DNA of 50,348 nt from Anaerolineales bacterium (GTDB lineage: Bacteria; Chloroflexota; Anaerolineae; Anaerolineales; Villigracilaceae): contig JACMLM010000005.1 in NCBI GenBank assembly GCA_014379595.1, positions 1-50,348 of the forward strand, given 5' to 3'. Both the position numbers and the translations under genes were made by a program. Positions 24,631 to 35,585 of the stretch are shown in pieces; position 1 is the stretch's first letter, and each line of letters opens with the position of its first letter. The notes under the pieces were generated by a model. The model did no database searches, had not been told where the DNA came from, and worked only from the letters and a program-made list of their open reading frames with translations.

Positions 24631-24690
24631 AGCGAAGGGTATAAATTTCATATTGATAATTGTTATTTACTTTTTATTTACTATTAATAA

Positions 24691-24720
24691 GCCTATCCTC
24701 TCAGATGGGCTGTTTTCTTT
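24691..24720 (+). terminator. Terminator-like hairpin before phoB
   Basis: GCCTATC (24691-24697) pairs with GATGGGC (24704-24710) with one wobble, followed by TGTTTTCTTT. It probably ends the transcript of the small membrane-protein gene. Confidence 0.5.
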
Positions 24721-24760
24721 AACATACCATTAACAGATAAGTTTTCTTTAATGGTATATT
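24719..24760 (+). promoter_or_regulatory. Pho-box-like repeat and promoter of the phoB homologue
   Basis: TTAACA (24719-24724), TACCA, TTAACA (24730-24735), GATAA, GTTTTC (24741-24746): hexamers at exactly 11 bp, the arrangement bound by PhoB/PhoP-type regulators. TATATT (24755-24760) can serve as -10; it is only 7 nt before the ATG, so the mRNA would be leaderless, in keeping with the absence of a ribosome site. A 10-bp inverted repeat ATACCATTAA/TTAATGGTAT (24724-24733 and 24748-24757) overlaps the same DNA. Confidence 0.55.
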
Positions 24761-24767
24761 CTCATCA

Positions 24768-25481
24768 ATGCCTGAAACAATTCTTATCGTTGAAGATGAA
24801 CTCTCCCTACAAGAGACACTTGCCTATAACCTGAAAAAAGAAGGCTATATCGTGGAAACTGTTGGAGACGGACGCTCCGCGCTTGAAGCTGCGCGGAGAT
24901 TAAAGCCTGACCTGATCGTATTGGATATCATGTTGCCAGAAATGGACGGGTTTGAAGTAGCCCGCATTCTGCGCAAGGAAATGTCTGCGGCCATTTTGAT
25001 GCTTACGGCACGTGATGATGAAATTGATCGTGTTGTGGGGCTTGAAGTTGGTGCGGATGATTACCTAACCAAGCCATTTTCCATGCGTGAGTTAATGGCA
25101 CGTGTGAAGTCACAACTCAGGCGTGCACGTTTGTTGCGCGAGGAAATGGGCAAGGATAGTGCAACATCCATGCCCAAACATGAAACGCTAACTTTTGATA
25201 ATCTCATTATCAACCTCACCCGCCGCGAAGTTATTCTTAACGATCAAGTGATACAGATCAAGCCAAAAGAATATGAATTACTGCTCTTTCTTGCTGAACA
25301 TCGCCGTCAAATGCTCTCACGCGAATTCATTCTCGAACGCGTGTGGGGCTGGGATTTTATCGGGGACAGCCGCACAGTAGATGTTCATGTCAGATGGCTA
25401 CGCCAAAAAATTGAAGTAGACTCTTCAAACCCTATACGTATTGTTACTGTACGTGGCGGTGGATACCGGTTTGAGGGGTAA
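24768..25481 (+). CDS. PhoB/PhoP-type response regulator (OmpR family)
   Basis: A 237-residue response regulator. The receiver domain (about 3-115) has the acidic pocket VEDE, the phosphoacceptor D52 in [13 protein letters not shown] and the Lys in LTKPFS. The DNA-binding winged helix (about 140-235) ends [15 protein letters not shown] then [11 protein letters not shown], typical of PhoB/PhoP. The sensor kinase follows 32 nt downstream, and the polyphosphate operon converges on this pair, so phosphate control is likely. Its own promoter carries Pho-box-like repeats, which suggests autoregulation. Confidence 0.88.
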
Positions 25482-25513: not shown

Positions 25514-26743
25514 ATGAATTCGTTTCTTTTAATATTGATCGTTGTTTTTTTTATTCTCGCTATCTGGTTTGCATGGCAATATTATGATCTAAAACGGAGC
25601 ATGAATGAGTATGCCCGTCTTGCGCGTATTTCGCCAGAGAGTCTCCCCGTTGACATCAAAAAAATCGAGACTTTATCGAGCGCCATTTCATCATTAAAGA
25701 CGTCTCTCAATCTACAACTTTCAACATTAAATGACGAAAATGCGCGTCTTGCCACTGTCCTTGAACAAATGATAGATGGTGTGCTCATTGTTGATGAACA
25801 TGGTCTCATCCAGTTTGCAAACCCAGCCGCACTAAAACTTTTTGAAACATCCTATGCGCTAGGGCATAGTGTGACCGAAGTGGTTCGCAATCATCAACTT
25901 GTAGATGCATGGCGGCGTTGTCAGCAAACTCGTGAGGTGCAAAGCGAATCAGTTGAATTGACTGGGCGCCGTCATTTTTTGCAAATTGTGGCTATCCCAG
26001 ATACCCATGCGGGCGGAAGCCTGCTTCTCGTTCAAGACCTCACACACGTACGCAGGCTCGAAACTGTGCGGCGGGATTTCATCTCCAATGTTTCACATGA
26101 ACTGCGAACTCCCCTCGCTTCTCTCAAAGCATTAACTGAGACATTACAAAGCGGCGCTCTCGCGGACCCGGAAGCTGGTCCGCGTTTCCTAGGCAGGATC
26201 AGCACTGAAGTAGATGCGCTGACGCAAATGGCTCAGGAATTACTTGACCTCTCACGCATTGAGTCGGGTCAGGTGGAATTAATATTGTCACCCATCAAGC
26301 CAAAAGAATTGCTTACATCTGCTTTAGATCGTATGAAGATGCAGGCCGAACGTGCAGGTTTAAAGTTATCAATTAAATGTGATGATGATCTGCCCAGTAT
26401 CCACGCTGATAAATCACGTTTGGAGCAAGTGTTGGTGAATCTAATTCATAACGCAGTGAAGTTCACAAAGCCAGGGGGAGAGGTAATTCTCGAAGCTGAA
26501 TCAGTTTCGGGCGGAGCACAATTCGCTGTACGGGATACAGGAGTAGGCATCCCAGCGGAAAGCCTATCCCGCATCTTTGAGAGATTCTATCGTGTGGATA
26601 GATCCCGCACAGGTTCAGGTACGGGTCTTGGGCTGTCGATTTCAAAACATATCGTGGAAGTGCACGGCGGAAGAATTTGGGCGGAAAGCGAAGAAGGGCG
26701 CGGAAGCACTTTCTATTTTGTGATACCGCTTCTGACAACTTAG
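25514..26743 (+). CDS. PhoR-type sensor histidine kinase
   Basis: A 409-residue membrane kinase. One N-terminal transmembrane segment (about 3-23), no large extracellular domain, a PAS domain (about 75-175, VLEQMIDGVLIVDEHGLIQF), then HisKA with the phosphorylated His in FISNVSHELRTPLASLKAL, N box VLVNLIHNAVKFT, G1 DTGVGIP, F box ERFYRVDRSR and G2 GTGLGLSISKHI. This layout matches PhoR. The start follows the repetitive text AACGATGAAGGATGAAGA. Its stop overlaps the stop of the convergent ppk gene by 2-3 nt. Confidence 0.88.
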   Translation: MNSFLLILIVVFFILAIWFAWQYYDLKRSMNEYARLARISPESLPVDIKKIETLSSAISSLKTSLNLQLSTLNDENARLATVLEQMIDGVLIVDEHGLIQFANPAALKLFETSYALGHSVTEVVRNHQLVDAWRRCQQTREVQSESVELTGRRHFLQIVAIPDTHAGGSLLLVQDLTHVRRLETVRRDFISNVSHELRTPLASLKALTETLQSGALADPEAGPRFLGRISTEVDALTQMAQELLDLSRIESGQVELILSPIKPKELLTSALDRMKMQAERAGLKLSIKCDDDLPSIHADKSRLEQVLVNLIHNAVKFTKPGGEVILEAESVSGGAQFAVRDTGVGIPAESLSRIFERFYRVDRSRTGSGTGLGLSISKHIVEVHGGRIWAESEEGRGSTFYFVIPLLTT

Positions 26744-28827
26744 CTCATAAAATTTTTCTGAACATCAAAAATATCTTTGCCAGAGGCAGAGCTGGGGTGG
26801 GTATATATGCCATTGGATTGAAGAATGTGCGCGCGCGCATTATCTTTAAAGTATGTTTCCAAAACATGGTGTCGCAAATACTTTATATGTTCCTTGTTTT
26901 CCACAGGGAAGACAATTTCAACGCGATGATTAAGATTACGCGGCATCAGGTCTGCGCTTCCAAGATATATTTCTTCTCTACCATCATTGTGAAAATAAAA
27001 TAAACGGCTGTGTTCAAGGAAACGTCCTACAATACTCAAAACGCGAATATTTTCGCTCACACCTTTTACACCGGGGCGCAGACAACACATACCTCGTACC
27101 AGCAGGTCTACCTGCACTCCTGCTTGTGAGGCTTGATATAAAAGCTGGATCATCTGAGGGTCAACAAGGGAATTAAGTTTGAAGATCAAACGAGCTTTGT
27201 GTTTTTGTCCTGCATGTTCAATTTCGCGCAGGATCAGGCTTTCCAATTTTTTACGCAAGGTGACTGGGGCTACAAATAATTTACGATATTCCTGTTTTGT
27301 GGAATAGCCTGTCAGATAATTAAAAAGATCGGTGGCATCTGCACCTATATCATCATCGCAGGTAAAAATACCTATATCTTCATATATTCGGGAAGTGATG
27401 GCATTGTAATTCCCTGTTGCAAGATGCAAGTATCGTCGAATGCCCTCCCCTTCCTTACGAATCACCATTGTGATCTTGCAATGGGTCTTCAAGCCAACGA
27501 GACCATACACCACGTGCACGCCTACTTGTTCGAGTGTGCGCGCCCAGCCAATATTTGATTCTTCATCGAAGCGTGCCTTAAGTTCTACAAGCACCGCTAC
27601 TTGTTTGCCTCGTTCTGCCGCTTCCAGCAGTGCATCCACAACCGGGGCATTCGCACCAACACGATAAACAGTTTGTTTAATAGCCAGCACTTGCGGATCG
27701 CGCGCCGCGGCATTCAGGAAATCCAACACGGGGTTGAATGAATCATAGGGATGATGGAGCAGGATACTCTCACTACGAATGGCATCAAAAATATCTGTGG
27801 CCGTTGTGACATGCTTGAATGCTTTGGGAACACGCGGCTTATAAACAGGATATTTCAGATCATGTCTTTCCACACTAGTATACAGTTGCCATAGCCCACT
27901 CAAGCCAAGTGGACTATCTAAAACATACACATCATTATGGGAGACTTCGAGATTTTCCACAAGAAGTTCGCGTATATTCTCAGGCATGGACGCATACACC
28001 GCCACCTGGACAACCGAACCAAATTTTCGTTTACGAATACTCTGCTGCATGGTTTCCAAAAGATCGTCTGCTTCCAGTTCCTGAATTTCAATATCTGCAT
28101 CCCGCACAATGCGAAATGGATGAGCAGCATTCACTTCCATACCTGGAAACAGGTCATCAAGATTTGCAGCAATCACCTGCTCCAACCAGACAAAATAATG
28201 ATGATGAGGGATCGTTCCATCCTTGCGGACACTGCCCGAAGAACGTTTGATAGGCAGTAAACGAGGTAATGTATCTGGAACTTTCAGACGCGCAAATTTT
28301 TCATTTCCTTTTTTATCATGGATCACAATCGCAAGATTTAAACTTAAGTTTGAAATATGTGGAAATGGATGCCCAGGGTCAAGGGCCAGCGGCGTAAGTA
28401 CAGGGTAAATTACTTCCTTGAAATAAGTGTTGGCACGTTCTTTTTGTGCTTTACTTAATTTATGATAATCAATAATATGGATGCCCGTTTTCTCCAGCTT
28501 GGGCAAAAGTTTGCGTTGATAACAGCGCTGTGCGTGATTCAACAATTCCAGAGATAGCTTGCGGATCGCCGCAAGCACATCGGGGGGCGTCATCCCGTCA
28601 GGTGAAACCTCCATAATACGCGCTTCGGCTTGTTTGCGGATGCCTGAAACTCGTACCATAAAGAATTCATCCATATTCGAGCCGAAGATGGACAGGAATT
28701 TTATACGTTCCAATAAAGGAATGCTTTCATCCCACGCTTCTTCAAGCACACGCCGTTGAAATTCCAGCAAGCTTAATTCGCGGTTGATATACAAAGAAGG
28801 AGATGAAAGATCAACGATTTCAGGCAT
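26740..28827 (-). CDS. ppk1: Polyphosphate kinase 1
   Basis: A 695-residue enzyme that polymerises the gamma-phosphate of ATP into polyphosphate. It has the N-terminal domain (YINRELSLLEFQRRVLEEA), the head domain, and the two phospholipase-D-like C-terminal domains. The autophosphorylated His is expected in GLKTHCKITMVIRKEG. Other conserved stretches are LAIKQTVYRVG, RRYLHLATGNYN and IYLGSADLMPRNLNHRVE. It is the last gene of phoU-ppx-CHAD-sixA-ppk, 2 nt after sixA. Length is normal for the family. Confidence 0.95.
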   Translation of the reverse strand: MPEIVDLSSPSLYINRELSLLEFQRRVLEEAWDESIPLLERIKFLSIFGSNMDEFFMVRVSGIRKQAEARIMEVSPDGMTPPDVLAAIRKLSLELLNHAQRCYQRKLLPKLEKTGIHIIDYHKLSKAQKERANTYFKEVIYPVLTPLALDPGHPFPHISNLSLNLAIVIHDKKGNEKFARLKVPDTLPRLLPIKRSSGSVRKDGTIPHHHYFVWLEQVIAANLDDLFPGMEVNAAHPFRIVRDADIEIQELEADDLLETMQQSIRKRKFGSVVQVAVYASMPENIRELLVENLEVSHNDVYVLDSPLGLSGLWQLYTSVERHDLKYPVYKPRVPKAFKHVTTATDIFDAIRSESILLHHPYDSFNPVLDFLNAAARDPQVLAIKQTVYRVGANAPVVDALLEAAERGKQVAVLVELKARFDEESNIGWARTLEQVGVHVVYGLVGLKTHCKITMVIRKEGEGIRRYLHLATGNYNAITSRIYEDIGIFTCDDDIGADATDLFNYLTGYSTKQEYRKLFVAPVTLRKKLESLILREIEHAGQKHKARLIFKLNSLVDPQMIQLLYQASQAGVQVDLLVRGMCCLRPGVKGVSENIRVLSIVGRFLEHSRLFYFHNDGREEIYLGSADLMPRNLNHRVEIVFPVENKEHIKYLRHHVLETYFKDNARAHILQSNGIYTHPSSASGKDIFDVQKNFMS

Positions 28828-28829
28828 TA

Positions 28830-29336
28830 TTATTTATCGCCAAGCTCAACAAGGATACCCGGTGTAAGCAGCCATTCCAAAGTAGCCTTGCGTGTGTGAT
28901 GCAGATCATCGGCAGAGAGACTGCATACGCCGCCTTTTTTCAGTGTAATATCCACGCTCGCATTTTCGGAAACAAGCCTGCTGATCAAATGGGTCAGTTC
29001 AGGTTCGTGCCCAACCACTGCAATACTATCCACACTATATTTCTCGTTAATTTCCGCGATCAATAGATCGGGGTCACCCATCGGGATCAGGTTTTCACTG
29101 AATTCAATACTTTTCTTCATCTTGAAAACATCCGCAAGAATTTCCGCCGTCTCTTTTGCGCGGACATACGGGCTGGATAAAACCAAATCAAAGCCAACAC
29201 CTAAAGCACGCAATCCTTTTGCGATCTGGCGCATTTTCTTTTTACCTTTATCAGTAAGAGGGCGCTGACTATCTTCTTCATATTCAGGTGTGCCTTCATC
29301 TACTGCAATCGCATGGCGGATGATATACAAGTTCAT
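28830..29336 (-). CDS. sixA: Phosphohistidine phosphatase SixA-like
   Basis: A 168-residue histidine phosphatase. The RHG-type motif is LYIIRHAIAVD (R7, H8), the second conserved region is LVLSSPYVRAKETAEIL and the second catalytic His is in VAVVGHEPELTHLIS. SixA removes phosphate from phosphohistidine in signalling proteins in E. coli; bacterial relatives often lie next to CHAD-domain genes, as here. Tight spacing on both sides (3 and 2 nt) shows it is part of the polyphosphate operon. Confidence 0.88.
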   Translation of the reverse strand: MNLYIIRHAIAVDEGTPEYEEDSQRPLTDKGKKKMRQIAKGLRALGVGFDLVLSSPYVRAKETAEILADVFKMKKSIEFSENLIPMGDPDLLIAEINEKYSVDSIAVVGHEPELTHLISRLVSENASVDITLKKGGVCSLSADDLHHTRKATLEWLLTPGILVELGDK

Positions 29337-29339
29337 TTT

Positions 29340-30188
29340 TTATTTCTCCTGGGGAAAAGGTTGATCTGGCGCATTGCGCCAAAAAGTAATCACCTCGCCT
29401 TTGTCCTCTATATAACGTGATAGGGCAAGAGCATGGCGTTCTTTATAATAAGAGCGGACAGGTTCGGGGTGATAGGATGCGGGTGCTAGCTCGCCAAAGT
29501 CTGTAAGTAACTGCAACGCCACTTCCATATCTTGAATATCGCCCATACTTGCTTGATAATCGTGCATTCTTTTTAGATAATCAACGGGCAAATTTTGAAG
29601 GATGGGATGAATGGCTTCGATCATGTAGCGGAATTTCTTGAATGCTATTCTTAAGCGATGGATCGTGGCAGGCTGGCTTGGGTCCACCAATGCATAGCGT
29701 TGGTTAACAATCGCATAAGCTTCATCAACAGCTGAAAACAAACTCAACTCCAGATTATCTTGTTTAGATACTTCGATTATTTGCTTTAACTTCTGAATGC
29801 GCTTTGAAAGGCTTGCTATCTTTAACGATTTAATTTCCTTACGGGCCGTACGTAACAATTTTTTCTCTTTACCTTGTAAATATTCCTGAAAGGGTTGAAG
29901 CACAGGGGCATCGTGAATTGTTTCAGATATATCAGCGAGCAATGCCTGTATATCACGCAGATCGTCAAGCTCATCCAGCTGATCTTTTAGAATGCGCCGC
30001 ATTTTTTGAATTCTCGGTTCCTGCATGACCGCGCGCAAGAGATCAAGCGAAGAAAGTAAGCGGCGTGCAGCTACACGGAAATCGTGAACCGCTTCTTCAG
30101 AAAACTCGTGGCGGCACGTCTTAAGCTCGGCTTTATATTTATCCCAGCGAGTGTTCAGTGAATCCAGTAAAAGAGTCTTTGCATTCAT
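29340..30188 (-). CDS. CHAD domain protein (polyphosphate-associated)
   Basis: A 282-residue helical protein with the CHAD pattern: conserved His and basic residues in HDFRVAARRLLSSLDLLRAV, LDDLRDIQALLADI, IHRLRIAFKKFRYMIEAI and MHDYQASMGDIQDMEVAL. CHAD domains bind polyphosphate through positively charged helices and have been found on polyphosphate granules. No CYTH domain is fused to it. It is embedded between ppx and sixA with gaps of 3 nt. Confidence 0.88.
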   Translation of the reverse strand: MNAKTLLLDSLNTRWDKYKAELKTCRHEFSEEAVHDFRVAARRLLSSLDLLRAVMQEPRIQKMRRILKDQLDELDDLRDIQALLADISETIHDAPVLQPFQEYLQGKEKKLLRTARKEIKSLKIASLSKRIQKLKQIIEVSKQDNLELSLFSAVDEAYAIVNQRYALVDPSQPATIHRLRIAFKKFRYMIEAIHPILQNLPVDYLKRMHDYQASMGDIQDMEVALQLLTDFGELAPASYHPEPVRSYYKERHALALSRYIEDKGEVITFWRNAPDQPFPQEK

Positions 30189-30191
30189 ATG

Positions 30192-31703
30192 CTATTCTAT
30201 GATTTCAAGCTTCATGCTGAATACATCTTGAAAAAGCTTCTGGCGTTTTTCAAGAGTCCATCTCTCCAGCATTAGATCGCCTTCTCCACATAGCTTTAAC
30301 TTCCAGGTATTTTTTTGCCGTGCAAGTTGTGTATCTTTAACTCGTCCCGTATGGCTCACATCCAATCCATCTGCAAGGCGCATTAACGCAGAGAGTTTTA
30401 TAACCACAAGACGGTCTTTGGGTGTCAGTGCTCGAAAACTTTCATCTTCGATGGATGGCGTGGATTTGCGATGATATAACATGATATTGGCAACGATGTT
30501 TTGCTGGTCTTCAGACAACCCGATCAGTGGACTGGCTTTCAAAATGTAATAGCCGTGTTTGTTATGGTCCACTGTATTAATAAAGTGACCTATATCGTGT
30601 AATAACGCGCCAATTTCCAGCAATAATTTATCTTCTTCATTCAGATTGTGTAAAGTTTGAGACTGTTCAAATAATCTTCCTGCGTGATGGGCAACAAGGT
30701 GCGCATGTTGTGCATCAAATTGGTATTTTTCGCCTAGGCGTAGAGCGGAAGTCCACACTTGTTCACGCGGCGAAACATGCACACTCTCCTGTAAATTATA
30801 GGCCATATCCCACAACACACCATCCTTCAATCCAACATTTGGGATAATCACTTCCTTGATCTTCGCCTCATGCCCGATCATTTGCAGGACGATGGATGCA
30901 GGCAGGATGACATCTGCACGGTCAGGCTTTAACTTGAATTTGCGCATCCTTTCTTCGACCTTCATCCTGCTCAACGTTTCAACGAGCTTATCCAACTCTG
31001 GAAGTGTGATCGCGCGATCACTATCACGTTTGAAGAGCTTCTCACGCAATTTGCCCATCTCTTCTATGTTGCCGCCCGTCCCGACGCAAATATCTATTTT
31101 TTTTGAACCAAGCTCACGGTCAATGCGGTGACGCGCTGCTTCTGCATATTCACGCACCAGTTTATGAAAAGGAAGTGCAGTGTTTTTTTCATTGCTTAGT
31201 TTTTTAAGCAAACGTACTGTCCCCATATTGTAACTTTCAGTCGAGATAATGTTTCCATTTAGTGAAAGAGTTACCTCCACACTGCCGCCCCCAATATCGA
31301 TCAATAAGGCATGTTTGTCTTTCAGGCTCACAGATTGAGCAACAGCCAGATGGATCAGCCGCGCTTCTTCCTCGCCGTTGATGATCTCAATATCAATGCC
31401 TGTCGTACGTGCAATACGGTCAATTAAAAGATCACTATTGGTTAACTCGCGCATGGCGCTGGTGGCTACAGAACGCAGTTTTTCTACATTGTGATCGTCT
31501 ACAATTTTACTGAAGCGCATAAATGCATCCACTGTTTGCTGCGCCGTTTCTTCGCTGACAATACCAGTTGTGAAGGCATCCTGCCCAAGGCGCACAGGCA
31601 GACGCAGATTTTCAACTACTTCAACCTTGCCATCATAGACCACCCTCCCGACAACCATACGCATGGCATTGGAGCCAACATCAATTGCCGCAATTGTTTG
31701 CAT
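30192..31703 (-). CDS. ppx: Exopolyphosphatase / guanosine pentaphosphatase (Ppx/GppA) with HD domain
   Basis: A 503-residue protein of the ASKHA fold: AAIDVGSNAMRMVVGRV at the start, the catalytic NGEEEARLIHLAV and the phosphate loop LLIDIGGGSVEVTL. The C-terminal third holds an HD-type domain (LLLEIGALLHDIGHFINT). It degrades polyphosphate and possibly pppGpp. Placed between phoU and CHAD, it gives the operon both a synthetic (ppk) and a degrading enzyme. Confidence 0.92.
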   Translation of the reverse strand: MQTIAAIDVGSNAMRMVVGRVVYDGKVEVVENLRLPVRLGQDAFTTGIVSEETAQQTVDAFMRFSKIVDDHNVEKLRSVATSAMRELTNSDLLIDRIARTTGIDIEIINGEEEARLIHLAVAQSVSLKDKHALLIDIGGGSVEVTLSLNGNIISTESYNMGTVRLLKKLSNEKNTALPFHKLVREYAEAARHRIDRELGSKKIDICVGTGGNIEEMGKLREKLFKRDSDRAITLPELDKLVETLSRMKVEERMRKFKLKPDRADVILPASIVLQMIGHEAKIKEVIIPNVGLKDGVLWDMAYNLQESVHVSPREQVWTSALRLGEKYQFDAQHAHLVAHHAGRLFEQSQTLHNLNEEDKLLLEIGALLHDIGHFINTVDHNKHGYYILKASPLIGLSEDQQNIVANIMLYHRKSTPSIEDESFRALTPKDRLVVIKLSALMRLADGLDVSHTGRVKDTQLARQKNTWKLKLCGEGDLMLERWTLEKRQKLFQDVFSMKLEIIE

Positions 31704-31714
31704 ATATCTGCTCT

Positions 31715-32395
31715 TTACTTTGTTGGAAAATGAAGGTTGGAAAACGCTTCATCGCCAAGCTCCCCCGTTTCAACATAGATGGTGCGTTCACAAATATTGG
31801 TTACACGGTCTGCGGCACGCTCCAAATTATGCACCACCCAAAGCAAATAATTCGCGCGGTCCATATTATGTGCATTGCGGACTACAAAGTTCATCAACTC
31901 TGAATAAATCTGACGATACATACTGTCAATAATATCATCATCAGCGATAATACGGACAGCCGAAGGTGAATTCGATTGAATGAACGCCGTCATGGCCACA
32001 TGTAACATATCAGATACTTTGATCCCCATATCATAACTAATAGTCAAAAGTCGCGGAATACTGATGCCTTCAGATATCAAATTAATACGTGCAATTGTTT
32101 TGGCGTAATCGCCTATCCTTTCCAATTCGGTGCAGATATTCAAGGCAGAAGCCAGGAAGCGCAGGTCAAATAATACGGGTGCCTGAGTGGCAATTGTAAC
32201 GATGATCTGTCCCTCCAGCTCAAATCGCTTGGCATTTATATACGCGTCATTGTCATAAACCACTCGCGATTTTTCCATATCATGATCTCTAAGAACAGTT
32301 ACAGATTCGATCAAGGCGGTTTCCACCATACTGCTCAGAAGCAGAAGATCGTCACGAATAATTTGGAGTTCATGGTCAAGACTCTTACGGGGCAT
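31715..32395 (-). CDS. phoU: Phosphate signalling protein PhoU
   Basis: A 226-residue protein from MPRKSLDHELQIIRDDLLLL; an in-frame ATG at 32473 would start inside the Pho-box repeats and is rejected. Two three-helix bundles carry the metal-binding signatures of the family (ELERIGDYAKTIARI at about 100 and NLERAADRVTNICERTI near 200). PhoU tunes the PhoR kinase and Pst transporter in response to phosphate; no pst genes are in the window. It is the first gene of the operon and starts after AAAGAGA. Confidence 0.93.
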   Translation of the reverse strand: MPRKSLDHELQIIRDDLLLLSSMVETALIESVTVLRDHDMEKSRVVYDNDAYINAKRFELEGQIIVTIATQAPVLFDLRFLASALNICTELERIGDYAKTIARINLISEGISIPRLLTISYDMGIKVSDMLHVAMTAFIQSNSPSAVRIIADDDIIDSMYRQIYSELMNFVVRNAHNMDRANYLLWVVHNLERAADRVTNICERTIYVETGELGDEAFSNLHFPTK

Positions 32396-32442
32396 ATTTT
32401 TTCTCTTTGAGGGAATGGCGTCTTTATAAGATAGTCCACCGA

Positions 32443-32481
32443 AGTTAACACCCCCAAAAGGTATTGTTAACAACTGGTAAA
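32443..32481 (-). promoter_or_regulatory. Pho-box-like array upstream of phoU
   Basis: Read on the minus strand: TTTACC, AGTTG, TTAACA, ATACC, TTTTGG, GGGTG, TTAACT, that is four hexamers at exact 11-bp steps (positions 32481-32476, 32470-32465, 32459-32454, 32448-32443). GTTAAC is self-complementary, so the array could also serve the divergent gene at 32579. Confidence 0.55.
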
Positions 32482-32578
32482 TAAAATAGCAAGGGTGAAT
32501 TTAAACAAACCATTAATTTCCTGTTCCCTTGAGCTTAATATGGAATGGTTACACTTGCAAAAACAAATTGGAGCCGCC

Positions 32579-33607
32579 ATGAGTAATATCCTTTTTATAT
32601 GTGGATCGCTTAACCAAACAACTCAAATGCATGCGATCGCTCATCATTTATTGAAAGATCATGAGTGTTATTTCACCCCCTATTATGCAGATGGATTCAT
32701 AGACTTATTTGCCCGCTTGGGCTGGCTGAATTTCACGGTTTTAGGCGGGCGTCACAAACACGAGACGGAGGAATATTTTCGCCGCAACAACTTGAAGGTT
32801 GATACAAGAGGCAGTGCACGTAATTATGACCTGATCGTCACATGCAGTGACTTGTTGGTACAGAAAAATATTCGCGGAAAACGCACGATCCTGATACAGG
32901 AAGGCATTACCGAACCCGAAGGTGTACTGTATCAATTGGTGAAATGGCTGAAACTGCCGCGCTATTTAGCCAATACAGCTACGAGCGGACTTTCTGACGA
33001 ATATGATATTTTTTGCGTGGCGTCACAGGGATATGCGGAATTATTCGTCCGCAAGGGTGTCAGGGAGGAAAAGATCGCTGTAACGGGAATACCAAATTTC
33101 GATAACGTGAAAAATACGCAAAAGAACGGCTTTCCCTTTCACAGATATGTCCTTGCGGCTACATCACCCTTGCGTGAAACTTTTCGGTTCGATAACCGCC
33201 GCGAATTCATTCGCAAATGTATCTCACTTGCAGGAGAACGTACGTTGGTCTTTAAGTTGCACCCGTCAGAAAATGCCAAAAGAGCGATAAGCGAGATCCA
33301 CGAGTACGCACCGGGGGCCATCGTTTATGAGCATGGAGATATTAATCAGATGATCGCGAACGCTGATGCGGTCATTACCCAACAGTCCACCTGTACATTT
33401 GTAGCTATTGCCCTGGGTAAGGAAGTTCACACCAACTTAAATATTGAGGAATTAAAGCAGTTGATGCCTATTCAGAACGGCGGCGCTTCGGCAGAATATA
33501 TTTCCCAGGTCTGTGAACGCATCCTACACACTCCCATCGACCTACTGCAAATAAAGCGCAAGGCAGCCCGTACGCGACTTAAACAAGAACAAGCAGATGC
33601 GTATTAA
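32579..33607 (+). CDS. Glycosyltransferase-like protein (GT-B fold, probable)
   Basis: A 342-residue protein starting MSNILFICGSLNQTTQMHAIA after GGAG. A Rossmann-like N-terminal half is followed by a linker (VTGIPNFDNV) and a second half with LVFKLHPSEN and YEHGDINQMIANADAVITQ, then STCTFVAIALGKEV. The KLHP and late acidic/Ser-Thr stretch are typical of CDP-glycerol transferase and UDP-GlcNAc 2-epimerase-like GT-B proteins. Acceptor and donor are unknown. It diverges from phoU and shares its Pho-box-containing intergenic region, so it may take part in phosphate-dependent envelope change. Confidence 0.7.
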   Translation: MSNILFICGSLNQTTQMHAIAHHLLKDHECYFTPYYADGFIDLFARLGWLNFTVLGGRHKHETEEYFRRNNLKVDTRGSARNYDLIVTCSDLLVQKNIRGKRTILIQEGITEPEGVLYQLVKWLKLPRYLANTATSGLSDEYDIFCVASQGYAELFVRKGVREEKIAVTGIPNFDNVKNTQKNGFPFHRYVLAATSPLRETFRFDNRREFIRKCISLAGERTLVFKLHPSENAKRAISEIHEYAPGAIVYEHGDINQMIANADAVITQQSTCTFVAIALGKEVHTNLNIEELKQLMPIQNGGASAEYISQVCERILHTPIDLLQIKRKAARTRLKQEQADAY

Positions 33608-33620
33608 TCTTGCATTTTTG

Positions 33621-33659
33621 TTTACTAGTTGTTAACTGTTTCTTAAGTCCAAAATAAAC
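33621..33659 (+). promoter_or_regulatory. Pho-box-like array upstream of the 35-codon gene
   Basis: TTTACT (33621-33626), AGTTG, TTAACT (33632-33637), GTTTC, TTAAGT (33643-33648), CCAAA, ATAAAC (33654-33659): four hexamers at exact 11-bp spacing, ending 38 nt before the start codon at 33698. Confidence 0.55.
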
Positions 33660-33697
33660 ACTTTGATGTATGATGGAAACATAGAAATGGAGAGCGC

Positions 33698-33805
33698 ATG
33701 GAAACGATCTTAACATCAGTCATTTTTGTATCTATGGTTGTAGTCTTCGGCGTGGATGCAACACGCAAACGCCGTGACTTTCTTAAGAAACACAAACGCG
33801 CTTAA
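33698..33805 (+). CDS. 35-residue single-span membrane protein
   Basis: A short gene of 36 codons. The protein begins METILTSVIFVSMVVVFGV, one transmembrane helix, and ends in a strongly basic tail (RKRRDFLKKHKRA), so the C-terminus is expected in the cytoplasm. ATGGAGAGCGC gives a good ribosome site, Pho-box-like repeats lie upstream and a clear terminator follows at 33843. These three signals together argue for a genuine, probably phosphate-controlled, small protein. I recognise no family. Confidence 0.65.
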   Translation: METILTSVIFVSMVVVFGVDATRKRRDFLKKHKRA

Positions 33806-33870: not shown

Positions 33871-34020
33871 GTTAATGCAACCCATACAATTTCTTAAAAT
33901 ACTCTTTACAGCGCCTTAATAGCTACTTGGTAGACTTATGAACAAATCATTAGCAGCTCACCTTGTAGAAAGCGTAATCTTTTTACATATTTATCGTTAA
34001 CTTGAATAGAAGGAGAAATT

Positions 34021-34731
34021 ATGGGACTTGCAGATATACATGTACACACAATTTACAGCTACGACGGCACAGCCTCCCTGTCTGCCGTTTTAAACCGTGC
34101 GAAACAAATAGGCTTGGATGTAATTGCCATTACCGATCATGACGAAATTGCAGGGGCATTGAAAGCCATGGAAATGGCCCCCATGTACGGCGTAGAAGTG
34201 ATCCCTGGGATTGAAATTACAACTGCCGAAGGCGACCTATTGGCTTACTTCATCACAGAAAAAGTGGATGCTGGTCTTTCGCTGGTGGAAACAGTTTTGA
34301 GAGTACGGGCACTTGGCGGCGTTTGTATTGCTGCTCACCCAATGGCAGGCGGTATGGGAATGAAAAGCCTGAGCGCACGCTCCATCTTGAAAGCGTTACG
34401 AAACCCAGCTGTGGCTGAAACCTTGATCGGTATTGAAACTTACAATGCCACTGCACTGGATAAGATGAGCAATCATTATGCACGCATTCTGGCAAATCGT
34501 TTGAATATCACCCAGGTCGGCAATAGTGATGCACACGTCGTGGAAGCGCTGGGACTTGGCGCAACAGAATTCGAAGGCAATAGTGCGGCAGATTTATTGA
34601 GCGCTTTGAAAAACGGAAAGACCAGGATCCGCAAGCAAAAGGAATGGAGTGCATTCAGGATCCTCGGCAGTTGGGGAATGCGTTATATAGAAAGCGCGCT
34701 TGTTCGAAGAGGCACAGCAGTACGCGCATAA
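34021..34731 (+). CDS. PHP domain phosphoesterase (TrpH/YciV-like)
   Basis: A 236-residue metal-dependent phosphoesterase. Metal ligands are visible in DIHVHTIYSYDG, ITDHDEIAG, the Glu in GIEITTAEG, CIAAHPMAGG and GNSDAHVVEALG, so the PHP site looks complete. Relatives act on 3',5'-nucleoside bisphosphates or as 5'-3' exoribonucleases (YciV). The ribosome site is AAGGAGAAATT. It is followed 26 nt later by surE, a second nucleotide phosphatase, and they are likely cotranscribed. Confidence 0.82.
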   Translation: MGLADIHVHTIYSYDGTASLSAVLNRAKQIGLDVIAITDHDEIAGALKAMEMAPMYGVEVIPGIEITTAEGDLLAYFITEKVDAGLSLVETVLRVRALGGVCIAAHPMAGGMGMKSLSARSILKALRNPAVAETLIGIETYNATALDKMSNHYARILANRLNITQVGNSDAHVVEALGLGATEFEGNSAADLLSALKNGKTRIRKQKEWSAFRILGSWGMRYIESALVRRGTAVRA

Positions 34732-34757: not shown

Positions 34758-35585
34758 ATGAAAAATATTTTAGTAACAAATGATGACGGGGTGCTTGCGC
34801 CCGGGCTTTTGGCACTTGCTGAGGAAATGCGAAAATTTGGCAAAGTGACCATTCTCGCGCCAGATCGTAACTGGTCTGGCGGCGGGCACGTAAAAACATT
34901 AGACCGAGCACTGAGGGTGCGAGAATTTCGTCTTGAAGACGGCACCCAGGCATTTGGAAGCGATGGCGCGCCCTCTGATTGTGTTGCGCTTGCAACACTT
35001 GGATATTTTAAAGAGAAATTCGATCTGGTTGTTTCCGGTATCAATGTCGGAGCAAACCTCGGGCATGATGTAACATATTCAGGAACCGTGACAGCCGCCA
35101 TGGAAGGTGTGATCGCAGGTTTGCCGAGCGTTGCGGTTTCACTTGAAGTTCCAGAGGGTTTCGTAGGTTTAGTGGACTTTGGACCTGCTGCTTCTGCAGC
35201 GGGAATTGCCGTACAAAACGTGATCACCAATGGACTGCCCGCAGAGACCTTGTTGAATATCAATGTGCCTTTCTTAAAGGCGGAAGAAATTCAGGGCATG
35301 CGGATTACACGGCAGGGTCTGCGTGTTTATCACAGCCGTTTGGATGAACGCGTTGACCCACGTGGACGCCCCTATTACTGGATCGGTGGTGACGCACCGA
35401 CCGGTGTGTCAGAATCAGGAACAGATGTCGGTGCGCTGGCGGCGGGCTTTGTCTCCGTCACGCCTCTGCAATTGGACCTGACAGCTTATCGTGCCATCTC
35501 TGATCTCAATACGTGGAACTGGCATTTGCAGCCTTCTGAAGTATCATCTCTGGTTACAAACTCTGTTGTGGTGGCAGACAAATAA
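34758..35585 (+). CDS. surE: 5'/3'-nucleotidase SurE
   Basis: A 275-residue survival protein. The metal-binding start ILVTNDDGVLAPGLLAL and the stretches LAPDRNWSGGGH, GAPSDCVALA and SGINVGANLGHDVTYSGTV are diagnostic. SurE dephosphorylates nucleoside monophosphates and can cut short polyphosphate, which may connect it with the nearby polyphosphate operon (inference). The stop is followed by a short hairpin at 35593. Confidence 0.94.
   Translation: MKNILVTNDDGVLAPGLLALAEEMRKFGKVTILAPDRNWSGGGHVKTLDRALRVREFRLEDGTQAFGSDGAPSDCVALATLGYFKEKFDLVVSGINVGANLGHDVTYSGTVTAAMEGVIAGLPSVAVSLEVPEGFVGLVDFGPAASAAGIAVQNVITNGLPAETLLNINVPFLKAEEIQGMRITRQGLRVYHSRLDERVDPRGRPYYWIGGDAPTGVSESGTDVGALAAGFVSVTPLQLDLTAYRAISDLNTWNWHLQPSEVSSLVTNSVVVADK

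Follow-up and report, generated by a model that had tools for sequence, protein, structure and literature searches.

A conserved array of 11-bp repeats marks a putative phosphate-starvation regulon in an Anaerolineales bacterium

Introduction

The PhoP box of Bacillus is composed of TT(A/T/C)ACA hexamers with spacers of about 5 bp, and pst, phoU and a phn-type transporter are among the targets of PhoB in E. coli. PolS-PolR of Microlunatus is an actinobacterial system. The PHO box of E. coli is described as 11-nt direct repeats, each with 7 conserved and 4 less conserved positions, upstream of the -10 element (PMC4415409). The Pho box of SphR in Synechocystis PCC 6803 is described as 8-bp CTTAACCT repeats separated by 3-bp linkers, in at least three tandem copies (PMC1906773). 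Here we analyzed a stretch of 50,348 nucleotides from an uncultured Anaerolineales bacterium of the Chloroflexota (GenBank assembly GCA_014379595.1, contig JACMLM010000005.1, positions 1 to 50,348), hereafter the window. It is contig C47 of a 4.47-Mb genome in 72 contigs. Arrays of repeats located ahead of phosphate-handling genes in this genome are, judging from sequence, very probably docking sites of a regulator that responds to phosphate shortage.

The regulon proposed below is of the conventional Pho type, with a box similar to that of cyanobacterial SphR, and such regulons are textbook material as a kind. The TTAAC core is identical to that of the SphR box, and the 11-bp step is the same. 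Unlike the SphR box, which belongs to another phylum, the arrays contain four repeats and are usually located 48 bp from the -10 element. The proposed targets here also include a polyphosphate operon and a 35-amino-acid membrane protein. The hexamer with a 5-bp spacer is shared with the Bacillus PhoP box, but the phylum and the set of promoters are different. As for E. coli PhoB, 11-nt repeats are found upstream of the -10 element, and pst, phoU and a phn-type transporter are proposed targets, whereas the core is TTAAC instead of CTGTCAT. The last 8-bp unit is 7 bp from the -10 element, compared to about 10 bp given for the E. coli box (PMC1906773). PolS-PolR is described as binding the promoters of phosphate-transport genes and regulating polyphosphate genes (PMC6754071), and our system would likewise place both under one two-component system.

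Chloroflexi are reported to be frequent in activated sludge, particularly where plants are designed to remove nitrogen and phosphorus (PMC6753630), and most are reported never to have been isolated in pure culture (PMC9942424). A reliable Pho box provides a read-out, from the genome sequence, of the Chloroflexi genes expected to respond to phosphate. It ties polyphosphate synthesis and phosphate uptake to one switch, and points to a small, unannotated membrane protein as worth studying. No Pho box or PhoB regulon of Chloroflexota or Anaerolineae was found among the matches listed in a search of titles and abstract beginnings in the open-access literature, a scope that leaves subscription papers, preprints and regulon databases aside. 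The string 'Chlorofle' is absent from the main text of a Pho review (PMC4415409).

Results

Arrays of 11-bp repeats in the window

Three arrays were read directly in the window. Site 1 (32429..32481, minus strand) is located upstream of phoU, the leading gene of the polyphosphate operon. From 32481 on the minus strand it reads TTTACC-N5-TTAACA-N5-TTTTGG-N5-TTAACT, and is followed by the -10-like word TATCTT. Site 2 (33621..33674, plus strand) is located upstream of the gene for the 35-amino-acid protein, hereafter the small gene. From 33621 it reads TTTACT-N5-TTAACT-N5-TTAAGT-N5-ATAAAC, followed by TATGAT. In both sites the -10-like word, defined as TANNNT and a guess from sequence, stands at offset 48, counted from the array's first T. 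Site 3 (24716..24761, plus strand) is located upstream of a response regulator gene starting at 24768. It contains only two good hexamers (TTAACA-N5-TTAACA from 24719; 24719-24724 and 24730-24735), and a -10-like TATATT at 24755-24760. The step between hexamers is exactly 11 bp throughout. The initial annotation of the window had claimed TTAACA-like hexamers at 11-bp steps at three sites, and the repeats are present at those coordinates. A candidate second array at 24666 (TTTAC-N6-TTTAC) was dropped: the profile R2 described below gives E 4 for 24668-24693, and the profile R3 does not list it.

The arrays were compared with 100 dinucleotide shuffles of the window, using a weight matrix of the R1 type built from 33 sites of relatives and none of this genome. 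Site 2 scored 49.9 and site 1 scored 43.8, while the best score in the shuffles was 12.4, with a mean of -2.4. Site 3, scored with a matrix built on phoB promoters from relatives, reached 30.3 against a shuffle maximum of 19.3.

Weaker arrays are found at two more genes. One (32502..32555, plus strand, -10-like TACACT) is divergent from site 1 and precedes a glycosyltransferase-like (GT) gene; the other (33883..33936, plus strand, -10-like TAGACT) precedes the PHP and surE genes. Their scores with the R1-type matrix, 4.2 and 6.9, fall inside the shuffle range (maximum 12.4), so the case for them comes from profile R2 and conservation. Both can also be framed at offset 48. This layout is a fit and not a test, because the framing required TANNNT at 48 before the hexamers were chosen. 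The same layout was fitted in relatives, in 14 of them for the GT array.

Spacing to the -10 element

The distance from the array to the -10-like word is constant. Among distinct sites chosen by their first two hexamers alone, TANNNT is found at offset 48 in 25/25 pstS, 22/22 small-gene and 5/6 phoU sites (52/53). The genus scan described below gave 99 distinct sites, and 88 of them have the word at this offset, partly by construction as profile R1 includes the -10 columns. The arrays are therefore located just upstream of a -10-like element at constant spacing, as in a PHO box. At ppx promoters of relatives the offset is 48-49, 36 or 26; the two smaller values correspond to a shift of roughly one and two helical turns. 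The final repeats occupy the position expected for the -35 element. Together with the known mechanism of PhoB (PMC4415409), this suggests that the bound regulator activates, rather than represses, by recruiting RNA polymerase.

At site 3, the ATG of the regulator gene is located 7 bp past the -10-like hexamer, and in most relatives the distance from array to ATG is 48-51 bp. The regulator mRNA is possibly leaderless, because the ATG is close to the predicted +1.

Profile scans of the genome

The initial annotation had proposed a matrix scan of the genome as a check. We built three profiles from sites in relatives. R1 contains 33 sites (14 pstS, 13 small gene and 6 phoU), and the broader R2 contains 31 (10 GT, 11 PHP, 4 pstS, 3 small gene and 3 phoU); neither includes a site of this genome. 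R3 represents the two-repeat promoters of the phoB class. These profiles placed sites 1-3 at or near the top. With R1, the best matches in the 4.47-Mb genome were the pstS promoter on another contig (E 1.3e-9), site 2 (9.8e-9) and site 1 (3.5e-8). The fourth match, on contig C69 (1.2e-5), is located upstream of an ABC transporter. Its ATPase and its binding protein are most similar to those of 2-aminoethylphosphonate transporters, with 432 bits for PhnT2 (cut-off 457.7) and 50 bits, far below the cut-off, for the PhnS type. The fifth match reached only 0.13. With R2, the PHP array was the best of the genome (4.4e-7), and the GT array was found at 4.5e-4. With R3, site 3 came first (3.8e-9), followed by one more match at 5.5e-5 and a remainder at 0.18 or above. 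Comparison with relatives thus shows that the arrays are specific, genome-wide, to the upstream regions of pst and further genes for phosphate scavenging. The promoters of pstS, the GT-like and PHP genes, the phosphonate-type transporter and a GAF-domain gene were outside the view of the initial annotation.

The GAF-domain gene (L158 4195-5172) is located behind the fifth R1 match, which R2 lifts to 0.00125. The N-terminal part of its protein is not named by Pfam, and a similar protein in genome G070 (L257) adjoins ppk and has its own array. With Pho-type arrays in two genomes, this protein is a candidate further member of the regulon. The second R3 match (C69:22537-22579; L298 3538-3580; E 5.5e-5) precedes a pair of solute-binding-protein-like genes, the second of which appears by eye to have a VWA-like C-terminus. 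This array is possibly an additional member.

Conservation in relatives and across the genus

In loci fetched from relatives, with upstream stretches below per-gene identity limits dropped, arrays were found upstream of 29/29 phoB-like genes (no model was needed), 8/8 window-type phoU genes and 26/27 small genes. All 29 pstS genes with >=55% identity, that of this genome included, have one. Some loci represent the same genome twice, and the distinct sequences number 25 for pstS, 22 for the small gene, 6 for phoU and 27 for phoB. No such array was seen by eye at less similar binding-protein genes (<50% identity, of another type). Window-type phoU is rare, a copy of at least 68% identity being present in 4 of 60 other genomes. 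In relatives that yielded ppx instead of phoU, an array is often located upstream of ppx (in 11 of the 28 stretches analyzed). At the same threshold, arrays were found upstream of 0/24 histidine kinase, 2/33 surE, 0/4 GT, 5/68 ppk, 8/43 sixA and 6/34 CHAD genes. One of the two surE arrays belongs to a second copy of the small gene. The sixA arrays were rejected as promoters of sixA: all eight are the array of the small gene on the opposite strand. One of the CHAD arrays has the same origin, the one in L033 looks like a genuine operon promoter, and four are unexplained.

The 11-bp step is conserved as well. Within 150 bp upstream of pstS, the small gene, phoU and phoB, 75 pairs of TTWAC are spaced at 11 bp, 8 at 33 bp and 7 at 22 bp, counts that come from related and not independent sequences. 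The control genes (histidine kinase, surE, ppk and GT) gave 1 pair at 11 bp and 2 at 22 bp; GT is an imperfect control, with four stretches, a wrong start and a weaker array of its own. These are direct repeats at 11-bp steps, as in a PHO box. The promoter consensus is TTAACAAGACG-TTAACctATtC-TTCCATTGnCc-TTAAGaGc for pstS, TTTACcagTTG-TTAACtGttTC-TTAAGTc-aTAAA for the small gene and TTTACCTgTTG-TTAACAAtnTC-TTTtGGGggTG-TTAAC for phoU. The phoB consensus contains two repeats, TTAACatcCCa-TTAACAGA, followed by CTTTATGGTATAtT.

In the genus scan, 50 of 57 genomes had an R1 match, and the matches at E <= 0.01 total 102. Of these, 46 are located before pstS, 42 before the small gene, 8 before phoU, 2 before phnS-like genes and 4 before other genes. 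A gene was assigned if it starts 30-200 bp from the array's first base, and the phnS-like class follows the best bit score. The four others are located before ppx (start at 418 bp), two STAS-domain genes and a GAF gene. The STAS-domain genes, anti-sigma-antagonist-like and nearly identical, are found in G010 and G028 (L253, L254) behind a partial array. Across the order, R1 matched 29 of 151 genomes. Six of them, this genome included, belong to the genus; the rest represent three more genera within the family and, with weaker matches, other families.

The regulator at 24768

The response regulator (24768..25481, plus strand) contains a receiver domain (PF00072, Response_reg, E 8.6e-30) and a winged helix (PF00486, Trans_reg_C, E 3.2e-27), as expected for the OmpR family. 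In the genus, the R3 array ends 4-7 bp ahead of the ATG in 43 of 49 regulator copies at E <= 4.4e-4, and 48 of 49 have it when five weak matches (E 0.017-0.98) are counted. The 49 exclude one 72%-identical partial copy in G008, and R3 was trained on relatives in the same set. The count used 51 matches, 46 at E <= 4.4e-4 and five weaker ones picked near regulator genes, and so measures how many regulators have the array and says nothing about how specific R3 is among weak matches. Three of the 51 have no listed regulator (G013:C386, G006:C80 and C69 of this genome); at G006:C80 a regulator follows directly (L135 4641).

The regulator is also linked to pst. Its distance from pstS is 2.2-12.7 kb in 20 fetched loci, some of them sharing a genome; this genome has the two genes on separate contigs. 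Among the 57 genomes, 45 have both the regulator and R1 sites, 3 the regulator only, 5 the sites only and 4 neither (Fisher p 0.009, uncorrected for relatedness). A partial regulator gene is present in G006, one of the five with sites only. The regulator is missing from three genomes of at least 90% completeness (G005, G064 and G075); this pstS is absent from all three, and R1 sites from two. This pstS was searched for only in the 12 genomes that lack either the regulator or R1 sites; 9 of them are <90% complete, and 10 of the 12 gave no match. We propose the product of 24768 as the binder because of its synteny with pst, its own array and this co-occurrence, and not because of its profile rank.

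Weighing the explanations

We put at roughly 0.84 the probability that the product of 24768, a regulator of the PhoB/SphR/RegX3 type, binds the arrays as Pho boxes, and that they mark a phosphate-starvation regulon. Several observations weigh against this reading. With the PhoB profile TIGR02154 the regulator ranks fifth in the genome at 215.8 bits, below four other regulators (218-234 bits). None exceeds the cut-off of 296.2, which was exceeded in just 2 of 14 control genomes, and the profile was rejected as proof of identity. Its best NCBIfam match is YycF (250.8 bits), followed by MtrA and RpaB, all ahead of PhoB (217 bits) and all below cut-off. In addition, G064 keeps a site before the small gene (E 0.0025) though no close regulator was found there, which weighs against a strict link between regulator and sites. 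The regulator of G015 has no usual R3 match at its start, where the array is spaced differently. With R2, site 2 drops to E 0.125. Seven of the 57 genus genomes have no R1 match, and G003, G065 and G076 among them (<=82% complete) do have the regulator. The profile scores would fit Pho boxes bound by another regulator of the OmpR family, with 24768 encoding a nearby WalR/MtrA/RpaB-type protein. We consider this a minority possibility, as it does not account for the array at the regulator's own promoter, the synteny with pst or the joint absence of regulator and pstS in the three well-completed genomes. The adjacent sensor kinase fits PnpS models best, then WalK, then PhoR, all under cut-off. 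The closest solved sequence to the regulator is RegX3 of M. tuberculosis (2oqr, E 1.7e-58), a phosphate-responsive regulator.

The match to YycF also raises a cell-envelope regulon of the WalR kind, in which the signal would not be phosphate. WalR-type boxes likewise repeat at 11 bp, and TGTAA/TTAAC-type repeats at this step are common to the regulator family. We consider such a regulon improbable: the targets found genome-wide are pstS, phoU-ppk and the phosphonate-type transporter, and no cell-wall gene is among the classified matches. Least credible of all is that the arrays are chance repeats in AT-rich DNA. The bare pattern TTWAC-N6-TTAAC-N6-TTWA, with one mismatch, has 8 matches in the whole genome compared to 23 for the reversed control, and was rejected as evidence. 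The GT and PHP arrays taken alone do not rise above the shuffles with the R1-type matrix. For sites 1-3 and pstS, however, chance is refuted by the shuffle controls, the scans with this genome held out and conservation. The genus scans include genomes that supplied training sites, and the -10 columns belong to R1, so their sensitivity is partly circular; neither their specificity nor the outcome for this genome is affected. The signal is the complete element of four repeats and a -10, together with its conservation, and not the bare hexamers. The initial annotation had named two findings that would count against it, a lack of conservation and equal frequency in AT-rich DNA. The arrays of sites 1-3 are conserved and exceed the shuffles, and the proposal was not refuted; the bare hexamers taken alone are not enriched. 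Its proposal that the regulator controls itself, the polyphosphate operon and the small membrane protein is supported by the comparative evidence.

Under the Pho-box reading, phosphate shortage would lead the PhoR/PnpS-like kinase encoded at 25514 to phosphorylate the regulator. The operators would be head-to-tail 11-bp repeats with a unit of about cTTAACnnnnn. Tandem regulator dimers would fill the four repeats on one helix face, and the regulator would act as an activator over the -35 region, recruiting RNA polymerase to a -10 element fixed 48 bp from the start of the array. The proposed main targets are pstSCAB-phoU, phoU-ppx-CHAD-sixA-ppk, the 35-amino-acid protein, the regulator itself through the two-repeat version, and the 2-aminoethylphosphonate-type ABC transporter. 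The GT-like gene, PHP(-surE) and the GAF-domain protein, with weaker arrays, may be further targets.

The predicted 35-amino-acid membrane protein

The small gene (33698..33805, plus strand) encodes a predicted single-span membrane protein with a basic C-terminus. Hydropathy is 2.67 over residues 4-19, and the charge is +6 over residues 20-35. Behind R1 sites we found 40 copies, 38 of them distinct, of 33-56 amino acids. The consensus is METIxxSxxFxSxxxVFSVDAxRKRREFLxKxxRA, and M1, D20, A21, K24, R25 and R26 are invariant in 20 aligned proteins. The median ratio of nonsynonymous to synonymous substitution rates (dN/dS) is 0.25 over 222 pairs. It was calculated from 24 sequences of 35 amino acids, and 222 of 276 pairs were used, excluding those with dS <=0, dS >=2 or a failed estimate. 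Column entropy is 0.77, 0.33 and 1.27 at the three codon positions, with the third the most variable. By these sequence measures the 35-codon gene is a real gene. A search of Pfam and NCBIfam with its protein returned 0 families.

A profile search located the small gene in 48 of 100 genomes of the family at E <= 0.01, sometimes as two nearby copies. An R1 site is located just upstream of it in G092, G169, G183 and G190, four genomes from a different genus. Two copies close together are found in L028 (9340, 5966) and in family genomes G207, G205, G223, G253 and G254. In L028 each copy has its own array, one before PHP and the other before surE. In 22 of the 40 copies the ATG coincides with the predicted +1 at offset 60, and the mRNA of these copies is therefore predicted to be leaderless. 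Another 11 copies start at offset 76-79, and a GGAG-like stretch can stand ahead of their ATG; the other 7 start elsewhere. The copy in the window belongs to the 76-79 class (offset 77).

The protein is potentially a new component of the regulon, and its newest element. Tentatively, it may represent a new family of membrane microproteins that are induced by phosphate starvation, made from a Pho promoter that is among the best matches of the genome, and often from leaderless mRNA. Like YoaI, such a protein might tune a partner in the membrane, for example Pst, the PhoR-like kinase or some other sensor. YoaI of E. coli is described in a meeting report as a 34-amino-acid protein under transcriptional control of PhoR-PhoB that activates EnvZ-OmpR (PMC11853020). 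The parallel is functional only, and comes from the description of YoaI, not from its sequence.

Gene neighborhood and the pst operon

The regulator gene is followed by the sensor histidine kinase gene (25514..26743, plus strand). The kinase is of the PhoR/PnpS type with a PAS domain, and scores 338.7 bits with PnpS (cut-off 400) and 285 bits with PhoR TIGR02966 (cut-off 334.2).

The polyphosphate operon is a run of five genes on the minus strand, from 32395 to 26740. It is composed of phoU (31715..32395; TIGR02135, 154 bits, above cut-off), an exopolyphosphatase gene of the ppx/gppA type with an HD domain (30192..31703; PF02541, E 1.1e-51), a CHAD-domain gene (29340..30188; PF05235, E 3.2e-31), sixA for a phosphohistidine phosphatase (28830..29336; TIGR00249, 107 bits, above cut-off) and the polyphosphate kinase gene ppk1 (26740..28827; TIGR03705, 868 bits, above cut-off). 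The CHAD domain is associated with polyphosphate.

On the plus strand, the GT gene (32579..33607, with 32579 proposed as the start) encodes a glycosyltransferase-like or CDP-glycerol glycerophosphotransferase-like protein. Its family matches are weak and all under cut-off (PF02350, E 2.7e-4; PF04464, E 4.3e-4; TIGR04396, 36 bits). Downstream of the small gene, the open reading frames at 34021..34731 and 34758-35585 are what we take, from their sequences, to be a PHP-domain phosphoesterase-type protein and surE. The order small gene, PHP, surE is kept in many loci of relatives.

The pst operon is located on a different contig, C37. It contains pstS and pstB, both over cut-off, pstC and pstA, named by eye, and a second phoU that is 47% identical to that of the window. 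A second pst-like transporter is found at C13:109569 (L002, L130), with a PstB score of 331.5 bits, just below the cut-off of 343.2. It has no R1 match, and is possibly a phosphate-independent or constitutive copy. Between pstB and phoU on C37 is an arsenate-reductase-like gene (L129 7859-8308; TIGR02691, 105 bits, cut-off 174.3). This gene may be a built-in detoxifier, because arsenate enters cells through phosphate transporters.

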